38,962 nt of DNA. It comes from Candidatus Wolfebacteria bacterium. GTDB lineage: Bacteria; Patescibacteriota; Minisyncoccia; Phycocordibacterales; NVSU01. Below the pieces are notes generated by a model. The model had not been told where the DNA came from. It worked only from the letters and a program-made list of their open reading frames with translations, and did no database searches. A program made the position numbers and the translations under genes. The stretch lies in assembly GCA_002401345.1 (NCBI GenBank), contig NVSU01000011.1:54-39015 (forward strand), written 5' to 3'. This document shows positions 5,913-10,984 of this stretch, in pieces. Position 1 is the first letter of the stretch. Each line of letters begins with the position of its first letter.

Positions 5913-5942
5913 ATCTCCTTTTACAGCGGTGTAAAAGGAGAT
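5913..5942 (+). other. 12-bp hairpin in the 23S leader
   Basis: ATCTCCTTTTAC-agcggt-GTAAAAGGAGAT, with no T run after it. It may be a processing or antitermination structure before the 23S processing stem. Confidence 0.6.
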
Positions 5943-6479
5943 ATATAAATTATATGTAAGTGATTTTTAAGTTTCCTAATAGGAAACAAGAGCATATGGT
6001 GGATGCCTTGACTCTAAAAGGCGATGAAGGACGTGGCTTGGCTGCGATAAGCTTCGGGGAGGTGCCTAGCGACCTTTGATCCGGAGATCTCCGAATGGGG
6101 AAACCTCATCCACTGAAAGTGGATGACTTCGATTTATTTCGAAGAGCGAACCCAGGGAAGTGAAACATCTCAGTACCTGGAGGAACAGAAAACAATGTCA
6201 CCTAGTGACGACATTCCCTAAGTAGCGGCGAGCGAAAAGGGAGGAGCCCAAACCCATCACTTCGGTGGTGGGGGTTGTAAGGTAACAACGTAGTTTTACT
6301 AGAGAAGTCAAAAAATACAATGTTAGTTGAAGTTGTTGGAAAGCAACGCCAAAGGAGGTGATAGCCCTGTAAGCGAAAACATTGAATCTTCTTTGTTGTT
6401 ATTCTTGAGTATCTCAAGACACGAATAGCTTGAGAGAATCTGCCAGCACTAACTGGTAAGGCTAAATACTTTTAGAGAT

Positions 6480-6518
<39 letters not shown>

Positions 6519-6598
6519 GTCCGATTAGGACAGTGAAATAGACCTGAAACCATATGCTTACAAGTAGTGGGAGTGGGCATCACATTGCATGTGATGCC

Positions 6599-6678
6599 GA
6601 ATTATGAATAAAGAATTATGAATTATGGGGGAAATTTGCTTCGCAAATTTCCCATTCCTGATTCATATTTCATGATTC
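6599..6678. repeat. Hairpin insertion in 23S rRNA (helix 25 region), copy 1
   Basis: GAATTATGAATAAAGAATTATGAATTAT-like sequence and a perfect GGGAAATTTGC-ttc-GCAAATTTCCC hairpin. It lies between two short hairpins (GGCATCACAT..ATGTGATGCC and GGACATCA..TGATGTCC). Flanking conserved sequence places it at E. coli helix 25. It shares its core with 7923-7986 in the opposite orientation. Confidence 0.75.
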
Positions 6679-7210
6679 GGACATCATGCGTAGTGTGATG
6701 TCCATGACCGCGTGCCTATTGAAGAATGAGCCAACGAGTTTATATATATTGCTTAGCTAAACCATACAGTGGTGGAGCTCTAGGGAAACCGAGTATTAAT
6801 AGTGCGAAATTTGTAGTATGTATAAGACCCGAAACCAAGTGAGCTTGCCATGAGCAGGGTGAACCCCGCAGAAATGTGGGAGGAGGCCCGAACCGGTTGG
6901 TCGTACAATTCCATCGGATGACTTGTGGTAAGGAGTGAAAAGCTAATCGAACTTGGTAATAGCTGGTTCTCTCCGAAATAGCTTTAGGGCTAGCGTCGTG
7001 TGTACCTTTTGGGGGTAGAGCACTGGAAGGTTTAAATAGGGGGAAACCTCGTTAAACCTATCAAACTCCGAATACCAAAAGTAAATTACGCGGCAGTTAG
7101 ACTACGGGGGCTAAGCTCCGTTAGTCGAAAGGGAAACAGCCCAGATCTCTAGATAAGGTCCCTAAATCTACACTAAGTGCAAACTAAGGATGTGAAATCT
7201 CATAGACAAT

Positions 7211-7254
<44 letters not shown>

Positions 7255-7922
7255 CAGCTCACTGATCAAGAGGTCTCGCGCCGAAAATAATCGGGGCTAA
7301 GTGTAGTACCGAATCTGAGGATTCATGATTACTTCGGTAATTGTGAGTGGTAGGAGAGTATTCCACTCCGCATTGAAGCCAAAGGGGTGACCCATGGTGG
7401 AGCGTGTGGAAGTAAGAATGTTGGCACAAGTAACCGCAACGCGGGTGAGATCCCCGCGCGCCGAAAGACTAAGGTTTCCTTGGCAATGATAATCAACCAA
7501 GGGTTAGTCGGGCCTAAGGCAATGGCGAAAGCCGCAGCCGATGGACACATGGTTAATATTCCATGACTTCTATATTGTTCGATGGGAGGACGGAGTTTAG
7601 TATGTATCGCGTATTATTGGATTTACGTTCGTACTGTAGGGAGGATGTGTAGGAAAATCCGCACATCATTAACTCCGAGCAGCGCGAAAATTCTTCACTT
7701 CGGTGAAGGAAATGATGCAAAGCAAGCTTCCAAGAAAATTCTCTAAGGATAACAATACAGAATCCGTACCGTAAACCAACACAGGTAGTCAGGTCGAGAA
7801 GACCAAGGCGAACGAGTGAGAGGTCCTCAAGGAACTCGGCAAAAAAGCAGCCGTAACTTCGGAATAAGGCTTGCCCGAGCATCTCACTGTCGTGAAATGC
7901 GGAATAATGAAGCATGAAGCAA

Positions 7923-7986
7923 GAATAATGAAATTAAAATTTGCGAAGCAAATTTTTTATAATTCATAATTCGTTATTCATAATTC
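7923..7986. repeat. Hairpin insertion in 23S rRNA (helix 63 region), copy 2
   Basis: The reverse complement reads GAATTATGAATAACGAATTATGAATTAT then AAATTTGCTTCGCAAATTT, nearly the same as copy 1. Flanks (CCGTAACTTCGG before, AAAGTATCCCTGGCGACTG after) place it at helix 63. Confidence 0.75.
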
Positions 7987-8193
7987 TGCAACGAACGAGA
8001 GTGAGATGCTTGGGCCGCAGCGAAAGTATCCCTGGCGACTGTTTATCAAAAACACAGCTCCCTGCGAACTAGTAATAGGATGTATAGGGGGTGACGCCTG
8101 ACCAATGCCAGAAGGTTAAATACGGGGGGTGCGTATCTCAGTATTCATAATTATTGTGAACACTGAGATGCGTGCTGATCTGTATAAGCCCTG

Positions 8194-8228
<35 letters not shown>

Positions 8229-8421
8229 TTACTACGTTTACAATTTGTAAGTGTAGTGAAGGACTGGGACTGTTATTCAGTGATAAACAGATACGCAAGT
8301 TACCTTCCACACAGTAATGTGTGAGTAGTCCAGTAACGATTAAATAGAGACCAACGTCGTTGCCCTACCTTGAAAAAGGAGGGATAAGATAGAGTCCATG
8401 ATGTGTTTTAAGGAATTCATG
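8229..8421 (+). ncRNA. Group I intron in 23S rRNA, E. coli position 1931
   Basis: 193 nt separate CGGTCCTAAGGT from AGCGAAATTCC, which are contiguous in ordinary 23S genes. The 5' exon ends in U and the intron ends in G, as expected. Core segments are recognisable: an R-like AAATAGAGACC, a P8 hairpin CCCTACCTTG..AAGGAGGG, and an S-like AAGATAGAGTCC. It has no ORF. The site is the helix 69 region also used by the Simkania-type intron and targeted by I-CeuI. Splicing should restore the normal sequence. Confidence 0.82.
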
Positions 8422-9084
8422 AGCGAAATTCCTTGTCTGGTAAGTTCAGACGTGCACGAATGGCGTAACGACTGGGGAACTGTCTCGAGGACTTGCTCGG
8501 TGAAAATACAATGCCGGTAAAGATGCCGGCTACCCACAGCTAGACGAAAAGACCCTAGAAGCTTTACTATAGCTTGATATTGGTTATGTTGTTTAACTGC
8601 GTAGAATAGGCGGGAGACTTTGAAGGACAGTTTTTGGATTGTCTGGAGTCGCCAGTGAAATACCGCTCTTTTAGACGGCATACCCTAATCCTTACGGTAA
8701 AAACGTAAAGAGACAGTATCTGGTAGGTAGTTTGTTTGGGGCGAATCCCTCCTAAAGAGTAACGGAGGGGCCTATTAAGGTCAGCTAGGCGCGAATGGAA
8801 ATCGTGCCGATAGTGTAATGGCATAAGCTGGCTTGACTGTAAGACGTACATGTCGAGCAGGTGCGAAAGCAGAGCATAGTGAACTGTTAGTACGCATTAG
8901 ATGCGGCTAACAATCAACGGATAAAAGCTACTCTAGGGATAACAGGCTAGTTCCGCCTAAGAGTTCATATCGACGGCGGAGTTCGGCACCTCGATGTCGG
9001 CTCAACTTATCCTGGGGCTGGAGAAGGTCCCAAGGGTTTGGCTGTTCGCCAATTAAAAAGTTACGCGAGCTGGGTTCAAACCGT

Positions 9085-9367
9085 TCAGGAGCTATAATAA
9101 TGGCTTTTGAATAGTTTGAATCCCTTCGAGATTTTTGTTTATGCAAAAGAAATAGGAACACAACCTTTCACGGCGGTCATAAAGAGTAATCTTTATGTCT
9201 AAAGTTGACTTATATCGGTGAAACCCTGATTAGAATCCAGGGCAATACCGAGGGAATTCATATATTTTTATTATATGAGGCCCGTAGAGACTGAATGTCA
9301 ACCTCCTTTATGTATTAAAGGATGAAGTTACAGTCCGTGCCATGTAGTAATACATGGGAAAATCATG
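9085..9367 (+). ncRNA. Group I intron in 23S rRNA, E. coli position 2593
   Basis: 283 nt separate GGGTTCAAACCGT from CGTGAGACAGG, which are adjacent in normal 23S genes; joining them restores the expected spacing. The core is clear: Q-like CCAGGGCAATACCGAGGGAA, R-like GTAGAGACTGAATG, P8 CTCCTTT..AAAGGA, S-like AAGTTACAGTCC, with P7 pairing GACTG to CAGTC. The intron ends in G. There is no ORF. The site is the peptidyl-transferase-proximal position known from the I-CreI intron. Confidence 0.9.
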
Positions 9368-9691
9368 CGTGAGACAGGTTGGTCTCCTATCTGCTGTGGG
9401 CGTTGATTCTTGAGAAGATCTGCTTCTAGTACGAGAGGACCGAAGTGGACTGACCTCTGGTGTATCGGCTGTCGTGCCAACGGCATTGCCGAGTAGCTAT
9501 GTTGGGAATGGATAACCTCTGAAAGCATCTAAGAGGGAAGCCAACTTCAAGATAAGGAATCGTTGAGAATCCTAGGAGATGACTAGGTTGATAGGCTCTA
9601 AGTGTACGCACAGTAATGTGTTCAGCTGAGGAGTACTAATTATTCGATTCCTATTAGGAAACTTGAAAATCACATATAATTAATGATCAAA

Positions 9692-9968
9692 TTTTGAAAG
9701 CTACTATTTGGGTTATGTAATCCAAAAAAAGAAAGCGAGCATTTTCGTTGAGTGTAGTACTGTCAGTTATTTTTTTAGAAAAATATTTACTGTGTTATTA
9801 CTGAAGATAAATAGTGGACACCTGGAACGTGACAATTGGGAAGTCTTACAAACTTCTCCAAAAAGGTACCAGTGATGTATTACTGCTCGCTCCCAATTCT
9901 AGTTCTTTCTATCTACAACATGTCGCGCGATCGAATGTTCGATCGCGCCCAAATAGTAGCTTTCAAAA
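9692..9968 (+). other. Structured 277-bp insert in the 23S-5S spacer, closed by a 21-bp stem
   Basis: TTTTGAAAGCTACTATTTGGG (9692-9712) is perfectly complementary to 9948-9968. The interior contains TTGGGAAG..CTTCTCCAA, a GCGAGCA/TGCTCGC pairing and GCGCGATCGAA..TTCGATCGCGC. Like the 23S and 5S genes, it appears enclosed by its own long processing-type stem. The tracked ORFs here lack coding character. The spacer also has ATGAAAAC-aa-GTTTTCAT at about 10004-10021. It may be an unrecognised RNA or a mobile insert. No target duplication was found. Confidence 0.6.
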
Positions 9969-10059
9969 AGTATGCAAAGCATATATTAGGTTCACTCGGA
10001 CGATATGAAAACAAGTTTTCATGTCGCTCCTCGTTGCCAAATATAGAATTGAATATTCT

Positions 10060-10169
10060 ATTCTGGTGGTTTGACGCGGTGGCCACACCTGTTCTCATTC
10101 CGAACACAGAAGTTAAGCACTGTAGTACCGATGATACTCTTTTAGGGGAAAGTAGGTAACTGCCAGAAT
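10060..10169 (+). rRNA. 5S ribosomal RNA
   Basis: 110 nt. The terminal stem ATTCTGG..CCAGAAT, the loop B/C region CCACACCTGTTCTCATTCCGAACACAG and AAGTTAAGCACTGTAG are diagnostic for bacterial 5S. The flanks extend the stem (TATTCT../..AGAGTA), suggesting a processing helix. It lies about 400 bp after the 23S gene, an unusually long spacer. Confidence 0.95.
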
Positions 10170-10185
10170 AGAGTATTTAATACCA

Positions 10186-10218: not shown

Positions 10219-10224
10219 TATAAT
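10219..10224 (+). promoter_or_regulatory. -10 box of a leaderless promoter
   Basis: TATAAT ends 7 bp before the ATG at 10232, so transcription should begin at or next to the start codon. This decides against the tracked ATG at 10223, which lies within the box. Confidence 0.7.
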
Positions 10225-10231
10225 GGCGAAT

Positions 10232-10984
10232 ATGAGCAAACCTGGAATTAATGAATTTTTCGATATAAATAAATTTCCGAAAGAAAAGGGGATTTTGTTT
10301 TTTCCCTTATCTATTTCCAATTTAGACACCAAACAAAGACCGGAGATTCTTATTCAACACATCGTGGATTTTATCCCTAAAGTGGCTATGCCACAGATTG
10401 GTTTAAATTTTGTGTACAGTGATACACTTTACTTGCATTCAGATGAGCTTGCATATGTTTTGAAACAGAAACACATGGAAATGATAATCAGTCACCGGAA
10501 TGCAATCCGTAAATTGATTGAGAAAAAAAGAATGAATCTCCAAATTCAGCATGCTTTTTCTTTTGAAAGTTGGTCTCAATTGTATCTTGGAACAAGAGAT
10601 TTTTCTGATAAATTTAGAGAGATTAGAAAGTTGTATGAAAGAGATGAAAATCTACAGAAGTACGTGAATGAAGACTGTACTTATTTTGGGAAAGAATGTT
10701 CAGAAAATCAAATTAATTTTTTCTTGGAAGAGTCACTCATGGCGTATCTTGCAGTAAAAGGGAAGGTTAGATTCCAGAATGATTACATTGAAGATCAGCA
10801 AAAATGGATACTACAGGCGTATCCAGGATTTCCTCCAAAAACACAGGTATATTTATTTCAATTGAACCCATTTAAACTAGAAAACCCTGACAATTTTTAT
10901 GAAAATGCATTTTATGATCTTGAGAAGAAACAATTAATAGAGTATGACCGTGTAGATTTAGAAACATATAATTTAGATTCATAA
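10232..10984 (+). CDS. Possible cyclodipeptide synthase-like protein
   Basis: 250 residues, soluble, no signal peptide. Several features follow the order seen in tRNA-dependent cyclodipeptide synthases (CDPS): an early strand ending in FPLSISN (the family has a nucleophilic Ser in a GxSxxN-like motif), YSDTLYLHSDELAYVLKQKH, SHRNAIRKLIEKK, a W-containing helix FSFESWSQLYLG, and a late INFFLEESLMAYL helix where CDPSs have the YxxxE catalytic pair. CDPSs join amino acids from two aminoacyl-tRNAs. The similarity is judged by eye; key residues, notably the Tyr before the Glu (Phe here), are not all conserved. It is followed two bases later by a membrane protein gene, probably in one operon. It could equally be a novel fold. 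Confidence 0.4.
   Translation: MSKPGINEFFDINKFPKEKGILFFPLSISNLDTKQRPEILIQHIVDFIPKVAMPQIGLNFVYSDTLYLHSDELAYVLKQKHMEMIISHRNAIRKLIEKKRMNLQIQHAFSFESWSQLYLGTRDFSDKFREIRKLYERDENLQKYVNEDCTYFGKECSENQINFFLEESLMAYLAVKGKVRFQNDYIEDQQKWILQAYPGFPPKTQVYLFQLNPFKLENPDNFYENAFYDLEKKQLIEYDRVDLETYNLDS

Follow-up and report, generated by a model that had tools for sequence, protein, structure and literature searches.

What kind of RNA, if any, is specified by the strongly folded 277-nt unit (9692–9968) that stands between the 23S and 5S rRNA genes of a 92% complete draft genome (897 kb in 24 contigs) from the Patescibacteria/CPR? The window, that is, the whole stretch of 38,962 nt analysed here, holds one 23S gene (5976–9659) and one 5S gene (10062–10168), and no 16S gene. 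The following elements make up the region after 23S.

9652–9688, forward strand: 3′ strand of the 23S processing stem (5′ strand at ~5940–5985)
9692–9712, forward strand: 5′ arm of the closing stem, TTTTGAAAGCTACTATTTGGG, consensus-like for the ITS2 (23S–5S) units of the order
9713–9901, forward strand: cargo region, AT-rich, without recognisable RNA; relatives have tRNA genes at the same place
9840–9856, forward strand: anticodon-arm-like hairpin GAAGT-CTTACAA-ACTTC (5 bp, 7-nt loop), resembling Val(UAC), not significant
9902–9908, forward strand: GTTCTTT, a boxA-like motif over-represented in the 23S–5S spacers of the order, with a presumed boxA role
9925–9948, forward strand: 10-bp GC-rich hairpin, GCGCGATCGA-ATGT-TCGATCGCGC, adjoining the inner edge of the 3′ arm
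9948–9968, forward strand: 3′ arm of the closing stem, perfect complement of the 5′ arm
9970–10047, forward strand: dispersed palindromic repeat, GTATGCAAAGCATAT...TTCACTCGGACGA...TCGCTCCTCGTTGCC, separate from the unit
10048–10181, forward strand: 5S (10062–10168) with its enclosing stem (arms 10048–10071 and 10158–10181)

The two arms of the unit form a perfect inverted repeat (9692–9712 and 9948–9968; 21 nt, 100% complementary) that encloses 235 nt, exactly as the initial annotation of this DNA had described it. Its statement that 23S and 5S each lie within long stems of their own is borne out as well: 23S is closed by the pairing of ~5940–5985 with 9652–9688 (duplex energy −43.6 kcal/mol), 5S by that of 10048–10071 with 10158–10181, and the unit is located between these two processing stems. 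The 401-nt 23S–5S spacer is in effect a series of stem-loops, comprising the 23S stem, the 277-nt unit, the repeat at 9970–10047 and the 5S stem. The same annotation had denied the unit both a target duplication and an ORF of quality, and rightly so: the left flank (...TTAATGATCAAA) and the right flank (AGTATGCAAAGC) share no direct repeat, and the sole overlapping ORF of at least 80 aa (9836–10159, TTG start) continues into 5S and is without a match in Pfam. The 23S–5S spacer contains nothing resembling a promoter or a terminator, the single promoter-like match being situated downstream of 5S, which makes co-transcription the natural assumption.

Folding of the whole 277 nt yields −88.7 kcal/mol (z = −7.9 against dinucleotide shuffles), and for the segment 9685–9975 (z = −6.9) none of 200 shuffles reaches the native fold. 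When the arms are removed, the interior retains a z of −2.7; when the GC-rich hairpin is removed as well, the remaining 210 nt are no more stable than shuffles (z = −1.3), and the part 9800–9900 has a z of −0.5. The exceptional stability is due to the closing stem and the 9925–9948 hairpin, and the rest of the interior is ordinary. The internal helices claimed earlier are thereby reduced to one exceptional hairpin, the remainder being like shuffled sequence.

Searches for homologues returned no second copy of the unit in its own genome and no homologue of the interior among the 396 other genomes of the order (397 searched, including the own); the significant matches in other genomes map almost all to the adjacent 9970–10047 repeat and not to the unit. 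Plasmid and phage collections yielded no match to the unit; a 17-mer of one arm recurs in a single IMG/VR contig, where the partner arm is missing, and was judged a chance match. Rfam covariance models, applied at the gathering threshold and at E up to 10, matched only 5S meaningfully and assigned the unit to no family (6S, SRP, RNase P, tmRNA and others). A decayed 5S was rejected as an identity for the interior, its local similarity being equalled by 30 of 200 shuffles. Synteny was followed by means of the protein encoded downstream of 5S, and none of the six relatives found in this way has 23S or 5S nearby. That protein (10223–10984), which begins just after 5S and belongs to no known Pfam family, has its closest named relatives in Candidatus Nomurabacteria; its occurrence in Nomurabacteria and in Nanoarchaeota/Pacearchaeota (39–52% identity) suggests transfer between CPR and DPANN lineages.

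Several further elements were noted in the window. The imperfect palindrome at 9970–10047 is dispersed: many genomes of the order have homologous repeats (74–88%) at loci unrelated to this one, and it is probably mobile. Two palindromic insertions (6600–6690 and 7905–7990) reside within 23S rRNA and have in common AAATTTGC-TTC/GAA-GCAAATTT and AATTATGAAT-like arms, a pattern found nowhere else in the own genome. An IS200-like protein of the Y1_Tnp family is encoded at 1209–1850; possibly a REP-associated transposase, it is a candidate for mobilising the palindromes. Near the 3′ end of 23S, at 9157–9357, there is a match to a group I intron, and two other loci (L012 and L031) likewise have one in the 3′ part of 23S.

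The most informative evidence comes from the 23S–5S spacers of the order as a whole. Eighty loci, 29 further loci and the window gave 108 complete spacers, 107 from other genomes of the order and none from the same family as the window's genome, with lengths of 32–926 nt. Sixty spacers measure 140 nt or more, and in each of these the best ungapped stem with 40 nt or more inside it was sought and expressed as a z against shuffles; an enclosing stem with z of at least 5 is present in 30 of them, and the window's stem, with z 12.3, ranks sixth. A shell consisting of a 19–22 bp stem, frequently with a hairpin against the inside of its 3′ arm, occurs in about two dozen spacers from about 18 families of the order and is built to a common plan. 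It opens with a 5′ arm that often resembles TTTTGAAAACTA...GTGGGT; one or more tRNAs come soon afterwards, then a hairpin directly before the 3′ arm, and finally the 3′ arm itself. tRNA genes were recognised in 18 stem-enclosed units that fit this plan (L009, L015, L028, L075, L081, L082, L090, L109, L120, L122, L123, L125, L135, L136, L137, L140, L141 and L148), with T-arm plus acceptor scores of 19–23. Units without a scoring tRNA are those of the window, L012 and L031, and likewise of L098, L117 and L132, the last three carrying what by eye are degenerate or interrupted tRNA-like remains that stay below T-arm plus acceptor scoring. Six other strong stems (L011, L016, L027, L079, L083 and L131) seem unrelated to the family.

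The window's unit shares more with this family than the mere presence of a stem. Of the 30 strong stems, 16 have a hairpin against the inner edge of the 3′ arm and four have one against that of the 5′ arm, the mean abutting-hairpin scores being 15.5 and 8.2, respectively, against 7.2 in shuffles; the window's own 3′-arm hairpin scores 27 (shuffle maximum 11) and occupies the same place as in many tRNA-bearing units. When arms are chosen by pairing alone, the likeness of the window's 5′ arm to the other 29 is exceeded by just one of 2000 shuffled arms, and the mutual likeness of all arms together lies above every one of 100 shuffles. A profile built from ten TTGAAA-type arms finds its best match in the 39-kb window at 9692, a score reached by none of 2000 spacer shuffles; these ten arms were chosen by eye, a bias from which the stem z-search and the all-arm comparison are free. 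Among eleven aligned TTGAAA-type stems, the window included, pair positions 3–8 are nearly constant and positions 12–22 hold up to five pair types. Pairing is what the stem search selects, which biases the percentage of paired positions; the varied Watson–Crick pairs at positions 12–22 of these aligned sequences amount to compensatory change. The motif GTTCTTT, which we take to resemble the boxA antitermination element, occurs 25 times in the spacers and six times in shuffles, and is found in the unit at 9902–9908. Absence of the spacer from all relatives, named earlier as a sign of mobile insertion, was found for the interior sequence but not for the shell, which is present in relatives.

Two peculiarities of the relatives' spacers are recorded here. 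Their tRNAs (L010, L081, L009, L098 and L117) often seem to be interrupted in the D arm by stem-closed insertions of ~50–100 nt, and those of L010, L098 and L117 stay unmatched by Rfam at E values as high as 1. In addition, extra partial or interrupted 5S copies are found near or before the true 5S in the spacers of L005, L007, L008 and L011.

Does the window's unit itself contain a tRNA? Neither ARAGORN nor the Rfam tRNA model identified one in the unit, and the best T-arm plus acceptor score in the unit is 13, compared with a shuffle mean of 15.2 and with 19–23 in the 18 tRNA-bearing units. ARAGORN runs allowing anticodon-loop introns and relaxed thresholds produced just mutually overlapping, poorly paired fits, which were not accepted. 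A decayed tRNA was sought by local similarity to 49 tRNAs, where the best value was equalled by 13 of 100 shuffles; the Val(UAC)-like anticodon arm at 9840–9856 was equalled by seven of 100, and an intact tRNA-Val(UAC) is encoded elsewhere in the genome. As all four tests (ARAGORN, Rfam, T-arm plus acceptor, local similarity) are negative, the interior is not called a tRNA. Elsewhere in the own genome (contigs C3, C24 and C15; L182 381–580, L181, L183 and L184), several tRNA genes are just partly matched by the Rfam model: a tRNA-Val(GAC) has ~50 nt, forming two hairpins, inserted near position 10, and the 5′ acceptor halves of Met and Asp tRNAs were not found within ~400 nt upstream. These partial matches possibly reflect insertions outside the anticodon loop.

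Taken together, the segment 9692–9968 is probably a member of the family of stem-enclosed ITS2 units of this Patescibacteria/CPR order whose cargo tRNA has been lost, decayed or replaced. This reading is based on the anatomy, the shared shell, the compensatory changes, the tRNA cargo of relatives and the lack of a detectable tRNA in the unit. The shell is the sole ground for deriving the window's unit from one that bore a tRNA, the defining cargo being undetected in it. The unit would be co-transcribed with 23S and 5S; its long perfect stem, most likely a third stem for processing in the rRNA precursor, would present a likely RNase III-type site, and the short hairpin would stack inside, against the 3′ arm. 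Most relatives with such a shell have one or several tRNAs in it, and these would be freed from 23S and 5S when the stem is cut; in this genome the shell appears to have been kept and the tRNA to have been lost, to have decayed past recognition or to have been replaced. A decayed unit should lose its perfect stem in time, and the window's stem is therefore either still useful or the loss is recent. Probably it still separates and folds the pre-rRNA spacer.

Other readings share parts of this evidence. The initial annotation had envisaged a stable RNA; its third folded unit of the rRNA precursor, enclosed by a stem and recurrent in the order, is supported, and the RNA itself is a candidate of low probability. 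A new, stable, non-coding RNA (~210–280 nt) freed from the rRNA precursor, with the stem as its maturation signal, would accord with the perfect closing stem and the strong hairpin, with the use of the shell by relatives to carry real RNA genes, and with selection as suggested by a stem kept perfect. It is nevertheless unlikely, given that the interior minus arms and hairpin folds like shuffles, has no homologue in the 396 other genomes and obtains no Rfam match at E up to 10. Equally doubtful is the broader proposition that the third stem serves CPR bacteria as an exchangeable cargo slot, usually for tRNAs, which in this lineage would have passed to a new stable RNA set free along with ribosome components. 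A tRNA broken by insertion, or too divergent for ARAGORN and the Rfam model, might still be encoded in the unit, as spacer tRNAs of relatives (L010, L081, L009, L098 and L117) often seem to bear insertions in the D arm or elsewhere and can escape models, and the own tRNA-Val(GAC) is interrupted near position 10; the hairpin with CTTACAA at 9840–9856 and an 8-bp helix, AGCGAGCA/TGCTCGCT, before CCCA point the same way. The missing T-arm, a best T-arm plus acceptor score below the shuffle mean, the frequency with which shuffles equal both the hairpin and the similarity to known tRNAs, and the intact tRNA-Val(UAC) elsewhere nonetheless render a cryptic tRNA very unlikely.

A simple MITE-like mobile element with 21-bp terminal inverted repeats, inserted into the spacer, is disfavoured and in our estimation scarcely probable. 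The inverted repeat is indeed perfect, the region collects mobile palindromes (9970–10047 and the twin 19-nt palindromes in 23S) and a Y1_Tnp-family transposase gene lies at 1209–1850; yet there is no target duplication and no further copy in the genome or the order, and the arms fall within a stem family that is specific to spacers, shows compensatory changes and has tRNAs as its cargo. Chance or an assembly artefact, conceivable in a draft of 24 contigs and 92% completeness, is scarcely credible in view of the fold z of −7.9 and the same architecture in independent genomes.

Processing stems and spacer tRNAs are known kinds of element, and the proposed family can be set against them. Like the spacer tRNAs of bacterial rRNA operons (tRNA-Ile/Ala between 16S and 23S, and distal tRNAs), the tRNAs in the units of relatives are located between rRNA genes and share their strand; the difference is that the order's units sit between 23S and 5S in a dedicated third stem with an abutting hairpin, and the window's own unit has no recognisable tRNA. 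The stems at which RNase III processes the 16S and 23S precursors resemble the unit's long, near-perfect stem of flanking sequence, which stands beside the 23S stem of the same transcript but encloses neither 16S nor 23S, and whose cleavage is a prediction. With the intervening sequences of 23S rRNA, the unit shares a stem-closed, non-coding character within an rRNA transcript, whereas it is a spacer element, external to the mature rRNA. Inverted-repeat ends also mark the MITE/REP-like palindromic elements of CPR genomes, one of which follows at 9970–10047, but the unit is single copy, without target duplication, and its stem sequence is shared by units in the spacers of other families. According to a meeting report (PMC10714607), CPR rRNA genes contain numerous introns of groups I and II; these are a different thing from stem-enclosed spacer units.

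Among the open-licence papers searched, none was found to describe a dedicated and conserved stem that holds tRNAs between 23S and 5S and has a hairpin abutting it. On the reading as a family member, a puzzling structured spacer becomes an instance of an arrangement that recurs within a large order, most of it uncultured: a third rRNA-precursor stem that carries tRNAs, sometimes interrupted or degenerate, which can be lost. It also serves as a warning that standard models can miss tRNAs in such 23S–5S spacers, and it would bear on pre-rRNA and tRNA processing in bacteria with very reduced genomes.
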